Below, piece by piece: positions 2,461-22,813 of a DNA stretch of 22,813 nt (the stretch's first letter is position 1; each line of letters starts with the position of its first letter). The position numbers were made by a program, and so were the translations under genes. The notes under the pieces were generated by a model, which worked only from the letters and a program-made list of their open reading frames with translations, was not told the origin of the DNA and made no database searches. The DNA lies in the IMG/VR virus record IMGVR_UViG_3300037193_001180, positions 1 through 22,813 of that record. One strand, 5' to 3'. The stretch is from a virus.

Positions 2461-3666
2461 TCAGCCTCCAACCAACACGGTTTCTGCCGCCGTCCAGCCT
2501 TTGAAGAACGCGCCGTGCCACTCGGCCTTGCCCCATCCATACATTTCAGTCATGGTGGCGAGGTCCTTGATCACACGAGTCGACATTATGCGGCGGATCT
2601 TGTTGGTGTAGATCTTGTCGCGAATGCTCCATGCCCACTCGCACAACTCTGGCGTCGCGATGCTGGCCTCGACGTCACGATTGTAGTCCATCGTGATCAG
2701 GCCTACTTTGAATCGATCCAGAGTTGCCGCATCGAGTTGATTGCGACCAACATACATAGCGTCAGCGCCATTGCCAAAAGTATTGGCAGCCGCAACCAGA
2801 ACGAAATCCTTGTGCTTGCGCATGACCGGCTTTTCATAGCGCTGCTCCACAGTGTACGACGTGTTCGCGATCGCCTTGTTCACATACGTGAACAGGTTAG
2901 GATCACCTGCATCCATCTCGTCGAGCAGGAACACGCCGCCCTTCTCGTAACGAACCATCCATGGCGATGGCATGTGCTTGAACGAGCCGCGATCACCGAT
3001 CGGAAGCAAGCGCCCGTTGAACACTGCTTCGCTCATGCCCTCCGAGCAGCTCTGGTCGCTGTAGTCCAGATCCAACGCCTCGGCCAGCTTCTCACACAAG
3101 AACGTCTTGCCGCATCCGGCAGGGCCAACCAACAGGATCGGAATGCGCGCACTGGCAAGCTCGACCATCTGCTTGAACTCTGGCGGCAGCACGCCCTTGA
3201 CCTGCTTGACCTTGTCCTTCGACTTCACGATGATCGGTGCGCGCTTCTCAGCGGCCTCGCGCACTTGCTCCTTCGCGAAAGCCTCCAGCTGCTTCTTCAT
3301 CGCAGAGACGCACTGGTCCACAGCTTGGAACGCTTTCTCGCCAATCGCGTCGGCATGCTGGCTGATCACGCTCGTCAGCGTAGCATACATCCGCTTTTCC
3401 ATGTCTTCAGGCACAGCGCCGGCGGACGTCTGCGGTTCCTCTTTGAGCACGATGATCTCGTAACCTGTCTGAGCACGCGGCAGGTTCGCCAAGCACTTCG
3501 CCTTCAGGACCTCGGCATACGCTTCCTTCGTTTTAGTTTCTTCGCAAGCGTGGAAGCATCCCATCCACTCAGCAAGCACACGCTGCTGCCATCGTGGCAT
3601 GCGCTCGAAGTCTGCATCCTGAACCTTACCGACGAACTTATTGATGTTACGATTGCTGCGTCTCAT
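2461..3666 (-). CDS. MoxR/CobS-like AAA+ ATPase (401 aa)
   Basis: The AAA+ module has a Walker A motif G-P-A-G-C-G-K-T at residues 181-188 and a Walker B motif F-L-L-D-E-M-D at 246-252. A sensor-1-like stretch follows (V-A-A-A-N-T-F-G-N-G), then an L-D-A-A-T-L-D-R-F segment typical of the MoxR/CobS clade. Residues 1-165 are helical and charged and have no match I recognise. MoxR-type ATPases remodel protein complexes with a VWA partner; the VWA-like gene two positions downstream fits that. The start at 3666 is set by the leader CCATTAGGAGGCAACATC; earlier in-frame codons have no such site. The DNA is unusually rich in GATC. Phage relatives are known, but their substrates are mostly not. Confidence 0.85.
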   Translation of the reverse strand: MRRSNRNINKFVGKVQDADFERMPRWQQRVLAEWMGCFHACEETKTKEAYAEVLKAKCLANLPRAQTGYEIIVLKEEPQTSAGAVPEDMEKRMYATLTSVISQHADAIGEKAFQAVDQCVSAMKKQLEAFAKEQVREAAEKRAPIIVKSKDKVKQVKGVLPPEFKQMVELASARIPILLVGPAGCGKTFLCEKLAEALDLDYSDQSCSEGMSEAVFNGRLLPIGDRGSFKHMPSPWMVRYEKGGVFLLDEMDAGDPNLFTYVNKAIANTSYTVEQRYEKPVMRKHKDFVLVAAANTFGNGADAMYVGRNQLDAATLDRFKVGLITMDYNRDVEASIATPELCEWAWSIRDKIYTNKIRRIMSTRVIKDLATMTEMYGWGKAEWHGAFFKGWTAAETVLVGG

Positions 3667-3701
3667 GATGTTGCCTCCTAATGGCCAAAGCTTCTGGTTT
3701 G

Positions 3702-4016
3702 TTACTTGACTTCGCGACACGACTCGACAGGCCACCCGAACGACTGCCATCGCTCTTTGTTAGGCCGCTTGTTCGATTGCAGATACACGAGCCGCGTTGG
3801 CGATGGTGGCAACACGACGTCTTCCATCGTGGTGCCCGACAAGCCTTGCGTCTTCACTTGTACCGTCTCCGGTTGCGACTCTGCATACTTCCACTCGTCG
3901 GTGAAGATGCTGTCAACATCTGCGTCGTGGACCGGATAGCACTTGTCTCTGCGCAGCATCGTTGCTGGGAATGATCCGCTGCCTTTGACGATGAACTGAT
4001 ACAACTTGTTAGTCAT
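3702..4016 (-). CDS. Hypothetical protein (104 aa)
   Basis: The ATG at 4016 follows TTAGGAGGCATC with good spacing. The protein is soluble and mixed in charge, with a run of short polar stretches and an aromatic C-terminal part (R-W-Q-S-F-G-W-P). It has no membrane segment or Cys cluster and I do not recognise a family. It is the first gene after the terminator at 4041-4067 and shares the CCAT-GGAGG leader type with the downstream AAA+ ATPase, 35 bases away, so it probably opens the unit that includes the ATPase. Confidence 0.7.
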   Translation of the reverse strand: MTNKLYQFIVKGSGSFPATMLRRDKCYPVHDADVDSIFTDEWKYAESQPETVQVKTQGLSGTTMEDVVLPPSPTRLVYLQSNKRPNKERWQSFGWPVESCREVK

Positions 4017-10952: not shown

Positions 10953-11058
10953 CACAGCACCTCTTTCTCTTCGCGAGAATCAGTCCGATGAATATGCCTG
11001 CAATCAAACATCCCATGCCGTAGGCGTTCAACCATAGGTGCATCATATAGGTGTTCAT
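10930..11058 (-). CDS. Single-helix membrane protein (42 aa)
   Basis: The ATG at 11058 overlaps the stop of the primase-helicase gene (TGATG), with GGAGA 10 bases upstream. The protein has one hydrophobic segment, about residues 8-29 (G-M-G-C-L-I-A-G-I-F-I-G-L-I-L-A), followed by a basic cytoplasmic-type tail (K-R-K-R-C-C-D-G-R). This is a single-pass protein with its C-terminus probably inside the cell. A role in anchoring replication proteins or in exclusion is speculative. Confidence 0.6.
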   Translation of the reverse strand: MNTYMMHLWLNAYGMGCLIAGIFIGLILAKRKRCCDGRETRR

Positions 11059-13235
11059 CAGTGCGACTTCTCCCTTCGGTACTTCGCAAACTGCTTCGCG
11101 AGTCCAACGTAGTGCTCGGCCCAATCGCGGTTCTTCTCGTCCTTCCACTTCTGCCGATCGAAGACGGCATAGAGTGTGATGAGCGGCGAGTCCTCGGTGA
11201 GCCTCACCCTCCGCTTCTCCAGCCTCTGGTCATTGAGCATGCGCGCCATACGCTTCACGGTCACGTTGAAGCGGTACTTCGGATACGTGTGCTCGAACGT
11301 CTTCAGTATGTCCTCGGCGCGGAACAGCTGCATGTCCGGCTTGCTACCATTGACCATGTAGATGCGATCTGGATCTTCGATGACGCGCTCTGCGAACTCC
11401 GACAACGGGTCGCGAGCGAGTTCGATTATCTGTTTCTTCCACTTCGTCATGGGCGCGTCGCCCTTCGGATCGAAGCTGCTTATGTCCACGTTGTTGAGCA
11501 GGTAGTGCATGATGTTCGCCGCCCCTCCGGCTTCGCGCACCCACTCGTCCAGCATCTTGTATGTCCCGGCGCTCAGCCGCTCCTGTGGCCCCTCGATGAC
11601 AAACATGCGTCGGTCGTCGCGCTCCAGCGCGAGGGCATCATCGTGGTTGGATGTGAGGTAGTAGTTGCACACGTCCATGTACTCCACCTCGGGCTGGAAC
11701 TTCTCGTTGATGGTCACGGTCTCACGAGTGATGATGTCCTTGAGCATGCCCATCGCATCTCTTCGGTCCGTGTAGTTGGGCATGAAGATCTCGTTGGTCA
11801 CAACGAACTGCCGTCGAGCGGCATAGCCGTTGAAGTTGGAGTTCATGCCCTTGTTGCTGAGACGATAGAAGTTGCTCGGTCCGTAGATGAACTCCATGAC
11901 CGGATCGACGATGAAGGTCTTGCCGGTGCCTTGCATCTGCGAGTATACAAAGCATGCCTGGAACAGCTTCGTGGCCGGCTTCTGCAATGGATACGCGAGC
12001 CATTTCAGGAACCACTCGAACCACTGGCCGTCTCTCATGATGTGCCGAACGAGTTCGAGCCACATCTTCGGACTGCCCTTCTTCGGCGTCACAGCCGATG
12101 GCGTCCAGATGTTCAGCTCGTTGGACGCGCTCATCTCTGGTTCGCCTGGAAGGTACACCACGTCGCTCACGGATCGTCGCGTGGCCGACTTGGCCCATAG
12201 ATCCACGACTGGCACGGTCCTCTTGCCATCGACAGCCGCTTCACCTAAGTTCATGAAGCTCTCGCGCACGTGGTACAGATTCTTATAGTATTTACCGACC
12301 TTGATGTCGAAGAAGCGCATCTGCTTCTCGACGTAACAGACTCGGCTGTTGAGGATCTGCACTTTCTCGGAGGCCATGTAGGAGTGGCGCTCCAGAGCCA
12401 TGAAGGCATCGACTCCGTTCGCTTTGATGTAGTCGTCCAGGCCGGTCTTCGGCCCGGCGGTCTCGGCGTCGAGGAATATGAAGCTAATGTCCTCTGGCCC
12501 CTGCTCCTGCGTGAGCGTGAAGGCAAGCATGGACAAAGCCTGTCGCACCTCGGCCTTCCACATCACGTCGGCGTCGAAGCAGATCTCGACGCGTCGTCCG
12601 CGCCAGTTGATGTCCTGCAGTTCGGGGATCAGATCCCACAGACGCTTCGAGGACTTGAATGAGTAGACGCCACCGAGCGCCAAACATGCAAGTCCCGCCT
12701 TCGCTGCCACTGCCGCTTTCTTCTCGCCTTCCGTGATGAGTATGGTCTCACTCACGTCCTTGGCGATCTTGTCCCACTCCAGATACGGCGGAAAGTATGC
12801 ATGAGGCGCACTGTTCGCCGGCTGCGAGTATCGGAATGATCCCGTGTTGCCAGAGAACTTCCCCTTCTTGCCTTCGAGGAAGCGCACTCTGGAGTACGCA
12901 ATCTTTTTGCCCTTCAGATCAAAGTAGGGAATTCGGTACGAAGCCCGACGCTCACCTACATAGTCGTCGGTCTCATCGGCCGACATCACCTCAAGTCCAA
13001 GACGGTCGAAGTCCTTGGCACTTAGGCCAGAGCGCTCCAGATCCGCCAGAGCGTCATCATACAGATCCCCAGATCTGCGCTTCTTCCGCTTCTTCGAACT
13101 GGCAGGGTCATCCCGCTTCTCTGCCTTCTGCCTTCCGGCCTTCCGTGACCGCTTAGATTCTCCGTTCTCCGCCTTCTGCCCGTCGGCCTTCCGGCCTTTC
13201 GATTTCTTTATGTCCCGCTTCTTATTCGCACTCAT
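11058..13235 (-). CDS. Primase-helicase: TOPRIM-like (DUF3854-type) plus SF3-like (DUF5906-type) domains (725 aa)
   Basis: Residues 1-55 are a Lys/Arg-rich tail. Residues 100-270 look like a TOPRIM/DUF3854-type primase domain: I-T-E-G-E-K-K-A at about 167-174 and C-F-D-A-D at 209-213 are the acidic motifs. Residues 415-545 form a superfamily 3-like helicase core of the DUF5906 type: P-loop S-Q-M-Q-G-T-G-K-T at 422-430, Walker B-like F-V-V-T-N-E-I-F at 467-474, and a Y-Y-L-T-S-N sensor at 515-520. Such proteins prime and unwind phage DNA at the fork. The start at 13235 is chosen because GAGGA precedes it with normal spacing; 13247 is possible. No DNA polymerase is in the window. It lies beside the origin candidate. 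Confidence 0.85.
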   Translation of the reverse strand: MSANKKRDIKKSKGRKADGQKAENGESKRSRKAGRQKAEKRDDPASSKKRKKRRSGDLYDDALADLERSGLSAKDFDRLGLEVMSADETDDYVGERRASYRIPYFDLKGKKIAYSRVRFLEGKKGKFSGNTGSFRYSQPANSAPHAYFPPYLEWDKIAKDVSETILITEGEKKAAVAAKAGLACLALGGVYSFKSSKRLWDLIPELQDINWRGRRVEICFDADVMWKAEVRQALSMLAFTLTQEQGPEDISFIFLDAETAGPKTGLDDYIKANGVDAFMALERHSYMASEKVQILNSRVCYVEKQMRFFDIKVGKYYKNLYHVRESFMNLGEAAVDGKRTVPVVDLWAKSATRRSVSDVVYLPGEPEMSASNELNIWTPSAVTPKKGSPKMWLELVRHIMRDGQWFEWFLKWLAYPLQKPATKLFQACFVYSQMQGTGKTFIVDPVMEFIYGPSNFYRLSNKGMNSNFNGYAARRQFVVTNEIFMPNYTDRRDAMGMLKDIITRETVTINEKFQPEVEYMDVCNYYLTSNHDDALALERDDRRMFVIEGPQERLSAGTYKMLDEWVREAGGAANIMHYLLNNVDISSFDPKGDAPMTKWKKQIIELARDPLSEFAERVIEDPDRIYMVNGSKPDMQLFRAEDILKTFEHTYPKYRFNVTVKRMARMLNDQRLEKRRVRLTEDSPLITLYAVFDRQKWKDEKNRDWAEHYVGLAKQFAKYRREKSH

Positions 13236-13410
13236 CAGAGTCCTCATCAGTTGAGACGACTAGCGATACCCAAGTGCAAGCAAGGGCCACGATCGCTGGT
13301 GCAGAGCGAATGACGAGTGGAAGCTCGCCAGTCGTCTCACTGATGAAGACTCCGATGTTCGGTGGGCTCCACCTGACCTGTTGTCGAACGAGTCCATGCA
13401 ACGGCCTCAC
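13222..13410 (-). CDS. Hypothetical membrane protein at the head of the leftward operon (up to 62 aa)
   Basis: The frame overlaps the primase-helicase start by 14 bases, as expected of a coupled gene. Its C-terminus is acidic (S-T-D-E-D-S-D-E-C-E), preceded by a hydrophobic segment (P-A-I-V-A-L-A-C-T-W-V-S-L-V-V) that could cross the membrane. The GTG at 13410 is too close to AGGAG; a TTG at 13401 has better spacing. A different frame starting with ATG at 13397 encodes about 45 residues rich in Ser and is less convincing. Confidence 0.4.
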   Translation of the reverse strand: MRPLHGLVRQQVRWSPPNIGVFISETTGELPLVIRSAPAIVALACTWVSLVVSTDEDSDECE

Positions 13411-14305: not shown

Positions 14306-14506
14306 ATGCATGATCGAAACGGTACGGAGCTGAGGCAGGGCGATGTCGTGTTGATCCCTGCTGTGATCACGGGCCTGAGTCCAGGTGAGGACTACTGCAA
14401 TGTCTCTCTGCAGACGGTTCACGGTCGTCGCCCGGACGACGCGAAGGAATACATCGGTGCCATCAACACCGGAGTCTGCATTCTCCACGACCGCCCGAAT
14501 GGGTAA
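14306..14506 (+). CDS. Conserved small phage protein (66 aa)
   Basis: The ATG at 14306 follows CGAGGAGTTT with good spacing; an upstream in-frame start at 14180 lies in the promoter region and is rejected. The protein starts M-H-D-R-N-G-T-E-L-R-Q-G-D-V-V-L-I-P and continues E-D-Y-C-N-V-S-L-Q-T-V. This pattern is familiar from small beta-barrel-like proteins of many phages, but their function is unknown. It overlaps the HNH gene by 8 bases. Confidence 0.75.
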   Translation: MHDRNGTELRQGDVVLIPAVITGLSPGEDYCNVSLQTVHGRRPDDAKEYIGAINTGVCILHDRPNG

Positions 14507-15260: not shown

Positions 15261-16265
15261 ATGGCAGACGTAGTTACAAAGTCTTGGAATCTGGCGAACA
15301 TTGGTGGTCGCCGATACTCTACCAACGTTGCGCCTGGAAGCAACGCAGACGTCTGGTACGATGACTGGAACTACGTCGTCAACAGAACGGATTCTTTGGC
15401 CGCAGTGTTGGCAGCATTTCAAGCTCAAGGATATCAGAGCGTAGAAAACATCAACAACGGAACAGCCGCCACGGTAGGCGGATGGTTCTACACTGTCACG
15501 AGCATCCCAGGGTACGCGGGATCTTTCCCGCGAGGTGTGGCGCGCATGCTGTGCGTCGAGACCAACCCGTCTCCGCAAGGAGATCTGTGGCAGGCAGATC
15601 CGTCGCTGGTATTCTTCAACAACAACACTCCAGGCAATCTGCCTCCGAACATCTGGTTACAATGGTGGCAGTACAATTGTCGCAGCGGAGTGCAACAAAC
15701 AACGTTCGACGTTCGTGACAAGACGTTCTACGTCTCGAACGGCAGTGAAGCGCCTGGAGCTAACTATCCATCGAACAACTTTCCATGGCTCGTTCTGCAG
15801 GGAGCAGGCGGATTCAACTTTAACCCGCCACCGAACGACGTCGACAATTATATCGGGCTGCAGGCACAGCGATCGCAAGTGCCTCATGATCCAGGAGTGG
15901 ATCCTGCCGGTGGAGCGAAGATGCCGCAGAACTTGAACGCTGGCCCTATGATCCTGCCGAACACTATGACTCAGGTGCGTCTACATATGGACACGTCTGG
16001 CGCACAAGGACGCTTTGAAGCGTGGGCACGTCCGCGCGGCACACCTACGTTCACTAAGTTCTCAGAGTGGCTTGGCGGAGAAACCATGTACGATGGAGGG
16101 CTCGGTGAAGAGTTGATGCTTTGGCCGACCAACGCGGATGATCGGTCTGGATGCCGTGCCATGATTTGGCCATCCACCACTAACGGAGAAGGTCGTCACG
16201 GATTCAGATACTTTGGACCTCTTGAACTCGCGACTGCATCCAACCTGCTGGATAGTGGTGACTAA
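15261..16265 (+). CDS. Probable virion protein with jelly-roll-like composition (334 aa)
   Basis: The ATG at 15261 has only a weak site (CGAGTAG). The protein is rich in Asn, Gly, Pro, Trp and Tyr (W-Y-D-D-W-N-Y-V-V-N, I-W-L-Q-W-W-Q-Y-N), which fits a carbohydrate-binding or lyase-like beta-sandwich. It ends with a long aromatic segment (F-R-Y-F-G-P-L-E-L-A). No catalytic residue can be named. A tail fibre or receptor-binding component, or a polysaccharide-lyase-like depolymerase, is plausible; this is inference from composition and position. Its stop overlaps the next start (TAATG). Confidence 0.55.
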   Translation: MADVVTKSWNLANIGGRRYSTNVAPGSNADVWYDDWNYVVNRTDSLAAVLAAFQAQGYQSVENINNGTAATVGGWFYTVTSIPGYAGSFPRGVARMLCVETNPSPQGDLWQADPSLVFFNNNTPGNLPPNIWLQWWQYNCRSGVQQTTFDVRDKTFYVSNGSEAPGANYPSNNFPWLVLQGAGGFNFNPPPNDVDNYIGLQAQRSQVPHDPGVDPAGGAKMPQNLNAGPMILPNTMTQVRLHMDTSGAQGRFEAWARPRGTPTFTKFSEWLGGETMYDGGLGEELMLWPTNADDRSGCRAMIWPSTTNGEGRHGFRYFGPLELATASNLLDSGD

Positions 16266-17992
16266 TGTCCGAAATACTGCAACAAGTAGTTGTTCCAGGA
16301 TCGGCTTGGGCGACGGGAGTCTCCGCTCCTGTTTCCTTGCCAGGGCCAGCTACGATTGGAAGTCGTATTGTTGTAGGCACGCGATTCGGTGATGGCGCTG
16401 GTACTGCTACTGTCACAGCTGTGGCCGATGACGGAGATACGGCATTCGGCTTAGGCAAGCGACAACAAAACACTACTACAGGGCTTGTTCTTGAGCAGTG
16501 GTCAGGAATCGCCACAAGCGTAGATGCAGGTCAAAACGTCGTCATCACGCAGAGTACGACTGGAGCGTCCGGAGACGACATTATCTTCCTGATGGAAATA
16601 TCAGAGCCTGATGCAGATCAGGTCTTTGATGGAACTAACACCAACGGTGCGAACACTGATAACGTCGCTACGCACAACTCAGGAAACGTAACTACTACTA
16701 CTGACGGTGCCGTACTGATCGGCTTCTCTTCTGGCGGCAGCGGTACGTACACTGTAGACGCGGATTTCACGTCTGTATATACGAACTCACGATCGACGAT
16801 CGCTTCTCTTGAGCAGTCTGCTGCTGGAGTAACTTCTTACGAGGTTACCAGCAGTCCGACGCGCTTTGCGTCGGTGATAGTGGTTGCATACGAGGCAGGT
16901 GAAGCGGCAGAGCCCGCAATCGAAGCAGATCTGAATGTTACAGAAGGCGCAGACACCATCGCGTCTGATGTAGACGTGGCAGTAGCAGCGTCACTCAGCG
17001 TGACTGAAGGAGCCGACACTATAACCGTAGATGCGGAAGTGTTGGTGAGCGTCGCACTGAACGTGAGTGAAGCGGCTGATACTATGGCCGCGACGTACGA
17101 GTCGCTCTCGTACATTGTGATTCTCACTTCGCTCGCGAGTTCTGGTGACCGCATCACTGCGATCCCAGATCTAGAGGTCGGGTATTGGCTTCGTGTCGGT
17201 CCAGTGGTTACAGGAGGATCAATCTTAGATGTGCAAGTCAATGAAGACGGCACGTTTAACGTTGATGCTTCGGTCACGTCGTTCGAAGTGCAGGCTTTCA
17301 ACGGAAGTACATGGGGAGGCTATGGCACTCAGTACACATTCGAAACCATAGAGGGTGAGCTTACAGTCACGGAAGGTGCGGACACATTCGCGGCGACAAC
17401 GACTGCAGCAGTAGAAGCTTCGCTCAATGTGACTGAGGGAGTAGACACTATAACGGTTGATGCGGATGTGCTCGTGAGCGCCGCGTTGAACGTGACGGAA
17501 GGAAGTGATCAGGCATCGTTCAATGTAGGATCGAGCGTGCTTGGTTCCTTGAATGTGACAGAAGGAACAGACACTGTCGCAGTGAGTGCCGAGGTGCAGA
17601 TCCTCGCCGCGATGTCCGTGATAGAAGGGAGTGATACTGCAAGCCTTGATGTAGAGGTGAGTGTAGCTGCATCGCTGAACGTGACGGAAGGCGCAGATAC
17701 GATATCTGTTAACGCAGGGTCGTACATCTTTGCCGCCATGAGCGTGACAGAAGGGGCAGACACCTTCTCTGCTGATGTGGAGCTGGAGGCCATAAGTGCA
17801 TCACTATCCTTGACCGAAGGAGCTGATGCGTTCAGTGCTGATGTGGAAGTGCATGTAGAGGTAGCACTGTCTGTGACTGAAGGAGCTGACACTGCCTTCT
17901 TCACAACGCTACCTCTGCAGGATCCTACTATTGTGATTCGTCTACAGGGAACGTATGGTACTAGGATAGCGTTGCGAGGAACCAGAGGATAA
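16265..17992 (+). CDS. Repeat-containing virion protein, tail fibre-like (575 aa)
   Basis: The ATG at 16265 overlaps the previous stop. Residues 1-215 form a Thr/Gly/Ala-rich beta domain (T-A-V-A-D-D-G-D-T-A). From residue 223 to about 545 the protein has twelve copies of a unit of 21-22 residues containing L-N-V-T-E-G-A-D-T. A non-repeat domain (about 277-365, W-L-R-V-G-P-V-V-T-G and F-E-V-Q-A-F-N-G-S) interrupts after the third copy. The C-terminus is short and basic. Such repeats are typical of long extended fibres or adhesins; no known family is identified. Copy number may vary between relatives. Confidence 0.65.
   Translation: MSEILQQVVVPGSAWATGVSAPVSLPGPATIGSRIVVGTRFGDGAGTATVTAVADDGDTAFGLGKRQQNTTTGLVLEQWSGIATSVDAGQNVVITQSTTGASGDDIIFLMEISEPDADQVFDGTNTNGANTDNVATHNSGNVTTTTDGAVLIGFSSGGSGTYTVDADFTSVYTNSRSTIASLEQSAAGVTSYEVTSSPTRFASVIVVAYEAGEAAEPAIEADLNVTEGADTIASDVDVAVAASLSVTEGADTITVDAEVLVSVALNVSEAADTMAATYESLSYIVILTSLASSGDRITAIPDLEVGYWLRVGPVVTGGSILDVQVNEDGTFNVDASVTSFEVQAFNGSTWGGYGTQYTFETIEGELTVTEGADTFAATTTAAVEASLNVTEGVDTITVDADVLVSAALNVTEGSDQASFNVGSSVLGSLNVTEGTDTVAVSAEVQILAAMSVIEGSDTASLDVEVSVAASLNVTEGADTISVNAGSYIFAAMSVTEGADTFSADVELEAISASLSLTEGADAFSADVEVHVEVALSVTEGADTAFFTTLPLQDPTIVIRLQGTYGTRIALRGTRG
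16931..17893 (+). repeat. Twelve-unit coding repeat (L-N-V-T-E-G-A-D-T)
   Basis: Twelve degenerate units of about 63-66 bases, each encoding a variant of L-N-V-T-E-G-A-D-T. The third, sixth and eighth units are most diverged (S-E-A-A-D-T, E-G-S-D-Q, I-E-G-S-D-T). Codons differ between units, so the repeat is old or kept at the protein level. Confidence 0.85.
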
Positions 17993-19112: not shown

Positions 19113-19334
19113 ATGGTTGACAACACTTCAATGCTGCATCAGAAGTTCTGTGCAGTGGATCCAGGGAAGGTTGTCATACTCGAAGCGGAGAGGCCGCTTA
19201 CTTATGAGGAGTCGTATCGTATCCGACAGATGCTGAAGCATGCAGTGCAAGCGACCGGTGTGAAGTTTGTACTGTTGCCTCATGGAATCAAGGTAGCGAA
19301 GATCGAAGAACAGAAAGATGAGCAAGCGGGCTAA
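19113..19334 (+). CDS. Hypothetical protein (73 aa)
   Basis: The ATG at 19113 follows AGGGTAGATGT. The protein has a helical middle (Y-E-E-S-Y-R-I-R-Q-M-L-K-H-A-V) and flanking strands (K-V-V-I-L-E-A-E, V-K-F-V-L-L-P-H-G-I). It is small, alpha/beta and soluble. It overlaps the large terminase start by 17 bases, which suggests coupled expression with packaging genes. No family is recognised. Confidence 0.6.
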   Translation: MVDNTSMLHQKFCAVDPGKVVILEAERPLTYEESYRIRQMLKHAVQATGVKFVLLPHGIKVAKIEEQKDEQAG

Positions 19335-21135
19335 CAAAGCAGTCAAGGTCAAGACCGCGCCGAAGCGCACGGACTTGGTCGCGAAGCCTGTCAAGACGGC
19401 AGGCTCTGTGCCTGTCTGGACTACAGCGTGTCCAGACTGGGAGCGGCGCATCGTCGCTCAGGAATCGCTCATACCGTTTGGACCCTTGTTTCCAGATGCT
19501 GCCAATCAGGGCCTCGCGTACTTCAACGATCTGCGCGTTGCAGACGTAGCGCCGAGGGCCGGTGGCGATGTCGATCCTGTGACTGGCCTCATTCTGCCGC
19601 CGAAGATGGGCGAGCTTGCGAAGCCGTGGCTCACGGACTTCGTCAGCGCCATCTTTGGGTCGTATGATGAATCGATCGGCAAGCGCTGGATCACGGAATA
19701 CTTTCTGCTGATCAGCAAGAAGAATACGAAGTCCACGACAGCGGCAGGCATCATGCTGACCGCACTGTTGTTGAACTGGCGTCCGTCTGCGGAGTTCATC
19801 ATTCTCGCTCCGACCAAGGAGGTTGCAAACAACGCCTTCTTCCCGGCGCGTGACATGGTGAAGAATGACGCGGAGCTTGGCTCACTGCTTCATGTGCAGC
19901 CGCTCTTGCGTAGTATCACGCATAGAATTACGAACGCCACGCTCAAGGTGCTGTCTGCATCCGACGAGGTGGTCGGCGGCAAGAAGGCGTCGGGCATTCT
20001 GGTCGATGAGCTTTGGTTGTTCGGCAAGCGTGAGAACGCGGATGCCATGCTGCTCGAAGCGACCGGCGGTCTTGCCTCTCGTGACGAGGGCTTCGTCATC
20101 TACTTGTCCACGCAATCCGATGAGCCGCCAGCTGGCGTGTTCAAGAATAAGCTGGCGTATGCGCGCGACGTGCGTGATGGCAAGGTCAACGACAAGAAGT
20201 TCTTGCCGGTGATCTACGAGTTCCCAGAGAAGATGCTAAAGTCGGAAGCATACAAGGATACGAAGTATTTCTATGTGACGAACCCGAACCTCGGCGCGTC
20301 TGTATCACTTGAGTACCTTGAGCGAGAGTACAAGAAGGCGCAGCCGGATAACCAGAAGCTTCGTAACTTCCTTGCGAAGCATCTGAACGTTGAGATTGGC
20401 ATGCGATTGCGTAGCGCCGCGTGGGAAGGCGCGAAGCATTACATGCAATCGACCGACACAGAGATCAATCTGGATTATATCGTCGAGAACTGCGAGCAGA
20501 TCATCGTGGGCATCGACGGCGGCGGTCTCGCGGACTTGCTTGGAATGGCAGTTGTCGGGCATGACGGTGAACGTTGGGTCGGCTGGTGTAAGGCGTGGTG
20601 TCACAAGAGCGCCATCGAATACGCTACTGAGAACTACGGTCAAGCTGGCGCAGTAGAAATGCTGGAGCTTGAGAAGGACGGTGATCTGGTGATCGTCGAG
20701 CACGTCGGTGATGACGTTGATCAGCTCGCAGATATTGTCGAGAGGCTCAACGACACTGGCAACTTGACAGCGATCGGCCTGGACCCGCACGCAATCGGCG
20801 CTATCGTCGACGCCGTGACGGGCAGGGGCATCGAGAAAGAAAAGATTCTTGGCGTGTCGCAAGGATGGCGGCTCACTTCCGCCATCAAGACGACGGCACG
20901 CAAGATGGTGGAGGGGTCGCTTAAGCTCGCGAAGCAACCTCTCATGCAATGGGCAATGAGCAATGCGAGAGTGGAGGCGCGCGGCAACGCCGTGCTTATA
21001 ACGAAGGCCGCATCGGGCTCGATGAAGATCGATCCGTTGATGGCCTTGCTCGACGCGGTGGAGATCATGTCGCGCAATCCAGCGGCGTCGGATTCGAAGT
21101 ACCAAGTATTCTTTGTTGGAGGAGCACAACAGTGA
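19318..21135 (+). CDS. terL: Terminase large subunit, HK97-type (605 aa)
   Basis: This is the packaging motor and nuclease. The ATPase has a Walker A-like motif S-K-K-N-T-K-S-T at residues 133-140 and Walker B I-L-V-D-E at 227-231. The nuclease domain has V-G-I-D-G-G-G (D400), G-L-D-P (D489) and K-I-D-P-L-M-A-L-L-D-A (D572). The full length and motif order fit the Terminase_1 family. The Walker A is atypical: N-T-K-S replaces the usual N-G-K-S. The start overlaps the previous gene by 17 bases with only a weak ribosome site, and the stop overlaps the next GTG (GTGA). Confidence 0.93.
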   Translation: MSKRANKAVKVKTAPKRTDLVAKPVKTAGSVPVWTTACPDWERRIVAQESLIPFGPLFPDAANQGLAYFNDLRVADVAPRAGGDVDPVTGLILPPKMGELAKPWLTDFVSAIFGSYDESIGKRWITEYFLLISKKNTKSTTAAGIMLTALLLNWRPSAEFIILAPTKEVANNAFFPARDMVKNDAELGSLLHVQPLLRSITHRITNATLKVLSASDEVVGGKKASGILVDELWLFGKRENADAMLLEATGGLASRDEGFVIYLSTQSDEPPAGVFKNKLAYARDVRDGKVNDKKFLPVIYEFPEKMLKSEAYKDTKYFYVTNPNLGASVSLEYLEREYKKAQPDNQKLRNFLAKHLNVEIGMRLRSAAWEGAKHYMQSTDTEINLDYIVENCEQIIVGIDGGGLADLLGMAVVGHDGERWVGWCKAWCHKSAIEYATENYGQAGAVEMLELEKDGDLVIVEHVGDDVDQLADIVERLNDTGNLTAIGLDPHAIGAIVDAVTGRGIEKEKILGVSQGWRLTSAIKTTARKMVEGSLKLAKQPLMQWAMSNARVEARGNAVLITKAASGSMKIDPLMALLDAVEIMSRNPAASDSKYQVFFVGGAQQ

Positions 21136-22813
21136 AGCGCAAGACTGGAGCTGCGGTTCGACGACGAGAGGTGAAGGAAAAAGAATTCGCCTACTCGCTG
21201 ATCGAGATCAAAGCGATCGACGAGGACGAACGTGTAATCGAGGGCATGGCGACAACGCCGACGCCCGACAGTTACGAGGATATCGTTGACCCGATGGGAG
21301 CGGAGTACGAGTTGCCGATCCCGTATCTGTGGCAACATAACTCGCGAGAGCCGATCGGCTGGGTGACCAATGCCAAGCCGACCAAGGACGGCATTCCGGT
21401 CAAGGTGAAGCTCGCCAAGACCGACGAGCCCGGCAAGTTGAAGGAGCTGCTTGACTACGCATGGCAGCAGATCAAGCTGAAGCTGGTCCGCGGGCAGTCC
21501 ATCGGATTCCGCCCAATCGAGTACAGCTACATCAAAGGGACGAACGGGATTCATTTCACAAAGTGGCGGTGGCTGGAATTGAGCGCAGTGACAATCCCTG
21601 CGAACGAGGAGGCCACCATCGACATGGTTCGATCTATCGACCGCGAGCGACGCGCTCTGCCGAGCAAACAATCGTCGCATCGGGTCGTGCACCTTTCCGC
21701 TGGCGCGGAGCGTACTAACAAACGAGGAGTTTCAAACGTGAAGATTGCAGATCAAATCAAGGCACTGGAAGCCGAACGCGCCGCGAAGGCCGCGCGTATG
21801 TTGGAGATCCAGGAGAAGGCAGCGGAAGAGAACCGCAGCAAGGACGAGGCGGAGGCCGAAGAGTTCGGCAACCTGCGCGCCGAGATCAAGAGCATCGACA
21901 GCGAGCTGGCTGACCTCCGCGATCTGGAGAAGCTGCAAGTGTCGAAGGCCCGCAAGATCGATCCGCCGGAAGGCGAGGATCTGGATGAGGATGAGCCGGA
22001 AGTGCGCGGCCAGCAGCAGCGGAGTGGCGTGTCCGCCCTGCAGCTGAAGGTCAAGCTAGAGCCCGGCGTCGAGTTCGCTCGCTTCGCCATGGCACTCGGC
22101 GCTGCGAAAGGCAACCTCATGCAGGCTCTGGAGATCGCGAAGGCGCGCTTCAAGGATTCGCCGCGCGTGGTGCATGTGCTCAAAGCGGCCGTCGCCGCCG
22201 GCACGACCTCCGATGCGACCTGGGCTGGCCCGCTCCTGGAGTACAACCAGTTCGCTGGCGACTTCGTGGAGTTCCTGCGTCCGCAGACCATCATCGGTCG
22301 CTTCGGTGTGGGCGGTATCCCGGCGCTCCGTCGCGTTCCGTTCAACGTCAACATTCGCGCACAGACCTCCGGTGGCTCCGGCTACTGGGTCGGTCAGGGC
22401 GCGCCGAAGCCGCTCACGGCCTTCGGCTTCGCCGCGGTGACGCTGGCCTACACGAAGGTCGCGGCCATCTCGGTCATCACCGAAGAACTCGCGCGCTTCT
22501 CGTCGCCCTCCGCGGAAACGCTGGTGCGCGATGGACTGCGTGATGCGCTGGTGGAGCGGATCGATCGCGACTTCATCGATCCCGCCGAAGCTGGCACCGC
22601 GAACGTGCAGCCGGCGTCGATCACGAACGGCCTGACCGCGCTGACCTCCGCTGGCACCTCAGCGGACAACGCGCGGACGGACCTCGCGAACCTGATGGAG
22701 ACGTTCATCAGCAACAACCTCAACCCGGAAGGCGTGGTCTTGATCATGCCGACCACGTTGGCGCTGTCGCTGTCGTTCCAGGTCAACTCGCTCGGTCAGC
22801 CGGAGTTCCCCGG
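21132..22813 (+). CDS. Prohead protease fused in frame to HK97-fold major capsid protein (partial, 560 codons seen)
   Basis: The frame opens at a GTG overlapping the terminase stop and has no stop to the window end. Residues 20-165 are a prohead protease (peptidase U35/S78 type): catalytic His in L-W-Q-H-N (H69), Ser in G-Q-S-I-G-F (S123), Glu in W-L-E-L-S-A-V-T-I-P-A-N (E149). A 35-residue linker leads to a coiled-coil delta-like scaffold (about 205-265) and then an HK97 capsid fold (W-A-G-P-L-L-E-Y, G-Y-W-V-G-Q-G-A-P-K, S-V-I-T-E-E-L-A). The protease would cut the scaffold region during maturation. An internal ribosome site and GTG at 21738 could also make the capsid protein alone. Confidence 0.9.
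   Translation, partial: MKRKTGAAVRRREVKEKEFAYSLIEIKAIDEDERVIEGMATTPTPDSYEDIVDPMGAEYELPIPYLWQHNSREPIGWVTNAKPTKDGIPVKVKLAKTDEPGKLKELLDYAWQQIKLKLVRGQSIGFRPIEYSYIKGTNGIHFTKWRWLELSAVTIPANEEATIDMVRSIDRERRALPSKQSSHRVVHLSAGAERTNKRGVSNVKIADQIKALEAERAAKAARMLEIQEKAAEENRSKDEAEAEEFGNLRAEIKSIDSELADLRDLEKLQVSKARKIDPPEGEDLDEDEPEVRGQQQRSGVSALQLKVKLEPGVEFARFAMALGAAKGNLMQALEIAKARFKDSPRVVHVLKAAVAAGTTSDATWAGPLLEYNQFAGDFVEFLRPQTIIGRFGVGGIPALRRVPFNVNIRAQTSGGSGYWVGQGAPKPLTAFGFAAVTLAYTKVAAISVITEELARFSSPSAETLVRDGLRDALVERIDRDFIDPAEAGTANVQPASITNGLTALTSAGTSADNARTDLANLMETFISNNLNPEGVVLIMPTTLALSLSFQVNSLGQPEFP
21723..21740 (+). promoter_or_regulatory. Internal ribosome binding site and GTG start for the capsid protein
   Basis: CGAGGAGTTT (21723-21732) lies 5 bases before the in-frame GTG at 21738 (codon 203 of the fusion). 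The same ten bases precede the ATG at 14306. The GTG sits at the junction of linker and coiled coil, where a separate capsid gene would begin. Confidence 0.65.

Follow-up and report, generated by a model that had tools for sequence, protein, structure and literature searches.

A conserved internal start at the protease-scaffold boundary of a phage protease-capsid fusion gene points to two products from one frame

Introduction

The fusion of a prohead protease to a capsid protein within a single gene is already known in phages. The closest described case is ORF003 of phage PAJU2 (UniProt P85500, capsid polyprotein; Detrevirus, phrog_617), which is annotated in its record as 'prohead protease fused capsid protein' and for which a fused, autocatalytically cleaved polyprotein has been proposed (PMC8306868). 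The PAJU2 literature speaks of a fused and cleaved polyprotein only, and no mention of a second start was found in it. Other examples include ORF18 of Nocturne116, a protease-capsid gene (PMC8306868), and gp5 of MD8, a single gene that serves all three functions (PMC8508860). MD8 shares with Gifsy-2 and F10 a protease-scaffold-capsid fusion in one gene, although with a protease of the ClpP type, and the lactococcal c2/Q54 gene is also such a fusion, although very distant in sequence. No internal start is described for either of these groups in the literature searched, and none was reported there for protease-capsid fusions in general; as this literature omits most subscription papers, its silence is weak evidence.

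The layout in which a second start is nested within one frame has so far been described mainly for scaffold proteins. In phage lambda, according to the record annotation, the protease of gene C lies upstream and the scaffold Nu3 is nested in the same frame via an internal start; however, only the scaffold is nested there, protein E of the capsid has a gene of its own and the protease belongs to family S49. In herpesviruses, UL26 and UL26.5 represent a protease-scaffold fusion and a nested scaffold in one frame, with a protease fold that is broadly alike, but here too nothing beyond the scaffold is nested, and a separate gene encodes the capsid protein. UL26.5 begins in the middle of UL26, and scaffold derived from the UL26 fusion makes up about 10% of the total scaffold (PMC12474303). 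Finally, genes 4 and 5 of HK97, and their counterparts in phage D3, present the domain order protease, scaffold (delta) and capsid, but as separate genes, and the protease is packaged unfused to the shell subunit. In HK97 proheads about 60 proteases accompany 415 subunits, and in those of D3 about 90 accompany 540 (PMC12749128).

Organization of the fusion gene

The window analysed here is a stretch of 22,813 nucleotides from the IMG/VR virus record IMGVR_UViG_3300037193_001180. At the end of the terminase gene, a frame that opens with the GTG at 21132 continues uninterrupted to the last full codon, giving 560 residues, and runs past the window end, which truncates the capsid part. The relevant features are the following:

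19318-21135 (+): terminase large subunit gene (ORF list; Pfam TerL_ATPase and TerL_nuclease; phrog_9)
21119-21124 (+): Shine-Dalgarno GAGGAG of the first start, within TTGGAGGAG (sequence; pattern match 21119-21134; duplex energy -9.3)
21132-21134 (+): GTG, picked as the best first start codon of the protease-scaffold-capsid fusion
21192-21647 (+): prohead protease domain (Peptidase_S78), residues 21-172 (Pfam; invariant columns; structure model)
21336, 21498 and 21576 (+): codons of protease residues H69, S123 and E149, respectively (sequence)
21597-21737 (+): hypervariable linker, residues 156-202, probably disordered (low pLDDT; per-position entropy near 3 bits)
21724-21729 (+): internal Shine-Dalgarno GAGGAG (duplex energy -8.4; strength across the family; synonymous constraint)
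21738-21740 (+): GTG, codon 203, in-frame internal start of a predicted nested scaffold-capsid product (ATG/GTG kept in relatives)
21738-22055 (+): scaffold (delta-like) domain of the capsid protein, approximately residues 203-308 (model helices; 9gyi profile match)
22056-22813 (+): HK97-type capsid domain, truncated by the window end (Pfam Phage_capsid; phrog_10, phrog_617)

The terminase stop TGA (21133-21135) shares bases with the GTG that opens the fusion gene, in the form GTGA. In Pfam searches, residues 63-168 of the window protein match Peptidase_S78 (E 2e-8) and residues 406-543 match Phage_capsid (E 9.5e-9), and the match to phrog_617 spans residues 18-560 (E 1.4e-133). Residues H69, S123 and E149 are unchanged across 16 aligned relatives and, judging from this conservation and from the family, are the putative catalytic triad. 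A sequence-only reading of the window had described the unbroken frame, the triad and the position of GAGGAG and GTG exactly at the domain junction, and all of these hold, with the role of the triad being putative. It had also stated that protease-capsid fusions occur in some phages, for which PAJU2 is a precedent: ORF003 aligns over 97% of the window protein with 48% identity, the best-matching phage records are fused across 97% of the query, and PAJU2 shares CAGGAGGGCAACGAC-ATG at the joint.

A further point of that reading, the resemblance of the internal ribosome site to that of the gene at 14306, stands only in part. The sequence GAGGAGTTT does precede the ATG of that gene, but the motif GAGGAG-N4..9-RTG is near chance in the window (5 matches against 2.6 expected, with 12 of 100 shuffles reaching 5), so that the match gives weak support; taken from the window alone, the motif is unremarkable and uninformative.

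According to the predicted structure, the internal start codon sits where the disordered linker ends, immediately before the scaffold helix. Confidence of the model is high over the protease (residues 18-155) and over the scaffold helices (205-272), and poor over the capsid part. Within the scaffold domain it shows two long helices (205-232 and 239-272) followed by disorder, while pLDDT falls below 50 at residues 156-203, which cover the linker. The best Foldseek match of the model is the phage T4 gp21 protease (5jbl, E 9e-4), followed by herpesvirus proteases. At the point of the internal start, the family profile aligns with the first residues of the solved major head protein 9gyi.

Compared with the described systems, the window gene has, as do lambda C/Nu3 and UL26/UL26.5, an in-frame internal start with a ribosome site at the boundary between protease and scaffold. 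It differs from them in what is nested: instead of the scaffold only, the product would comprise scaffold and capsid, that is, the entire shell subunit. The separate-frame layout of HK97 is found in 32 split relatives and not in the window gene, which is one open frame.

Conservation of the internal start among relatives

Scans of sequence collections together with phage records yielded 180 loci with both domains, including the window, of which 148 are fused and 32 split; after removal of near-copies, 120 fused genes were aligned. A sequencing error that hides a stop or a frameshift at the joint, which the earlier reading had named as a possible pitfall, is unlikely, because 147 of the 179 other two-domain relatives are fused at this same joint, including the nearest relative, L108.

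The sequence-only reading had also held that a Shine-Dalgarno sequence and an ATG or GTG kept at codon 203 in relatives would speak for dual starts, and the comparison agrees. All 120 non-redundant fused genes carry an ATG (112) or a GTG (8) within 4 codons of the position of window codon 203, whereas, of the 9-codon windows taken from other parts of these genes, 33% contain an ATG or GTG. In an alignment anchored on the start codon, this column has an entropy of 0.35 bits, against 2.4-3.5 bits at the 16 positions upstream, and the linker residues around the joint are near random in the fused relatives. When the residue at the start column is not Met, it is always Val and always encoded by GTG, a codon that accounts for 34% of Val codons; about 6 changes between Met and Val are needed on the tree. 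The second codon after the internal start is AAN in 97 of the 120 genes. The window itself belongs to an all-fused clade of 39 rows in which the start has never been lost over 12.25 substitutions per column. As the relatives share descent and are not independent, the P values overstate the significance, but the pattern nevertheless holds across deep branches.

One fused relative (L015, 3001-5082) carries an extra module of approximately 130 residues within the linker; its joint still has a Met and a purine-rich site upstream.

Similar joints are found in more distant fusions. Among the lactococcal c2/Q54/GE1 protease-capsid genes, all 15 distinct members carry a Shine-Dalgarno sequence and an ATG where the protease meets the scaffold; phrog_3270 comprises the Q54 and Nocturne116 proteins, and the c2-type members are just 25-28% identical to Q54. 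In the ClpP-type F10/Gifsy-2 genes, an ATG lies right after the protease domain in 14 of 14 distinct members, with GGAG or GAGGA in most of them, but this set gives weaker support, because the surrounding protein is conserved too and part of the Shine-Dalgarno sequence doubles as a conserved protein motif. When the same scoring is applied to lambda gene C (L191), the strongest internal site, a very strong one, falls at codon 309, whereas the annotated nu3 start, at codon 239, is weak. Later work reportedly placed the Nu3 start near codon 309, and the annotation in the lambda record may be outdated.

Ribosome site and RNA-level marks at the joint

Across the 120 fused genes, the duplex with the 16S tail has a mean energy of -7.3 for the junction site, as against -2.1 for the remaining in-frame ATG/GTG codons. 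Energies at or below -5 are reached by 90% of junction sites and 13% of control sites, the control likewise taking the best of nine codons, and weak sequences (above -4) are found at 7 of the 120 junctions. Replacing the six codons upstream by random synonymous ones weakens the site in 110 of the 120 genes and shifts the mean from -7.3 to -5.5, while no comparable effect is seen when this recoding is applied at other in-frame ATG/GTG codons. Consistent with such codon choice, Gly codons just upstream of the internal start are GGA in 43 of 95 cases, as against 350 of 4696 gene-wide. In the family, folding of the RNA around the internal start is weaker than at 92% of codons, and in the window it is weaker than at every sampled codon. 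These comparisons locate the marks at the joint in the DNA, beyond what the protein alone accounts for.

The possibility that the second Shine-Dalgarno sequence is the stronger one and thereby sets the ratio of products was considered and rejected, since the two starts do not differ in strength across the family (119 genes, P 0.90) and differ little in the window (-9.3 for the first start, -8.4 for the internal one). Any ratio between fusion and free protein must therefore come from another source. An excess of free protein may arise from RNA accessibility, from upstream coupling at the GTGA or from an internal promoter, or the ratio may be nearer to 1:1. The earlier proposal that two starts may control the dose of protease is a plausible hypothesis.

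Split relatives, fusion and fission

Among the 31 split loci inspected, 30 have a capsid gene whose first residue is the one that matches codon 203 (M-N/K-..EQI), with a similar ribosome site, and in many split loci the capsid ATG overlaps the protease stop as ATGA. In three split loci (L147, L149 and L150) the capsid ATG is immediately preceded by a lone in-frame TAA, so that fused and split forms differ by one codon. On a tree of both domains (130 rows, linker excluded), changes between the fused and the split state number at least 12. Such easy fission would make sense if the downstream start already functions.

Stop-codon readthrough was considered for the split relatives that are separated by one in-frame stop (10 of 32) and dropped, as roughly one in three would be expected in frame by chance. 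In Stenotrophomonas phage SOVA965 (L020, 3172-4577) the protease is separate and the capsid gene is itself broken into two overlapping frames, for which a programmed frameshift, an intron or a sequencing error may be responsible.

Two starts in one frame and alternative explanations

Comparative evidence from the start column, the Shine-Dalgarno sequence and the synonymous constraint strongly supports dual starts at the joint, and it is highly likely that dual initiation yields a minor protease-scaffold-capsid fusion, which carries the protease into the prohead, together with free capsid protein. The open frame and the domains, as well as the constraint that acts on codon 203 and on the Shine-Dalgarno sequence before it, can be read directly from the DNA; from them we infer that the internal start is used, that the two products co-assemble and are cleaved, and that the fusion is the minor one. 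Ribosomes that initiate at the GTG at 21132, overlapping the terminase stop, would produce the fusion, and those that initiate at the GTG at 21738, at the end of the linker, would produce an ordinary scaffold-capsid protein. Both would co-assemble via their common scaffold and capsid domains, the fusion bringing the protease into the prohead and being held in the shell by its own capsid domain, and two starts would make mixed particles possible. After assembly, the protease would cut away the scaffold part, whereby the fusion would lose its protease and the free protein its scaffold; cleavage after the scaffold domain would leave identical mature subunits from both products. In HK97-like heads, maturation strips the scaffold domain. 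The N-termini of virion proteins therefore cannot tell the two starts apart, since maturation should remove both possible ones.

One alternative, that all capsid subunits are made fused and cleaved later while the internal site is idle, is in line with the cleaved polyprotein proposed for PAJU2 (PMC8306868), with the one-gene description of MD8 gp5 (PMC8508860) and with the equal strength of both Shine-Dalgarno sequences. Yet an idle site gives no reason for the synonymous constraint, for a start column restricted to ATG and GTG or for the unfolded RNA. Moreover, related heads hold several-fold fewer proteases than subunits, and judging from the HK97 and D3 counts a fusion-only product, with one protease for each subunit, would exceed the protease content of those heads several-fold, which leaves this explanation very unlikely. 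An internal start served by its own messenger, transcribed from a promoter inside the protease part, would give the internal Shine-Dalgarno sequence a function and has a model in UL26.5, which starts within UL26 (PMC12474303). The same two products would result. Phage late genes are usually on a single long transcript, which speaks against it, and it is considered unlikely.

The start and its Shine-Dalgarno sequence could also be decaying remnants of an ancestral separate capsid gene, as the at least 12 switches between fused and split states and the shared capsid start residue of the split relatives might indicate, and some fusions may be young. Decay is difficult to reconcile, however, with a start that is kept in 120 of 120 fused members, including the long-diverged all-fused clade of the window, and amid a linker whose residues are otherwise near random; this origin is extremely unlikely. 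Hardly any more credible is that Met or Val is required by the protein where the first scaffold helix starts, and not as a start codon. The position does open a predicted helix, and in the ClpP-type genes the neighbours of the start residue are conserved as well, but the codon choice in the Shine-Dalgarno sequence exceeds any amino-acid need, Val is always GTG, and the AAN codons (N or K) that follow the start so frequently are typical of starts.

Implications

Dual initiation at the joint, if general, can be formulated as a rule: tailed phages never assemble heads solely from a protease-capsid fusion, and every lineage with such a fusion keeps an internal start from which free capsid protein is made. 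This rule, which we regard as reasonably likely, would span S78-type and ClpP-type fusions and hosts from proteobacteria to lactococci, and a design based on mixed subunits would, if true, also explain why these genes fuse and split so readily. The scans returned hundreds of candidate loci, and in many phages and prophages this gene is annotated as one protein; if two products are made, the annotations, the head stoichiometry and the assembly models for the group change. The gene would represent a natural case of enzyme cargo loading in which shell subunits with and without the enzyme are mixed, and changes to a single codon and a single ribosome site, which would leave the protein almost or entirely unaltered, could test the dose control of a maturation protease directly.

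Other genes in the window

Several other genes of the window are worth recording. A 575-residue protein (16265-17992, +) contains many 'LNVTEGADT'-like repeats and has only a weak match to phrog_38872 and no Pfam family. The 729-residue protein encoded at 11058-13247 (-) combines DUF3854 and DUF5906 and is probably a replication primase/helicase. Finally, an AAA_5 ATPase (2461-3750, -) adjoins a DUF7192 protein (1336-2283, -), a pair that recalls the CobS/CobT-like pairs of ATPase and VWA proteins of phages.
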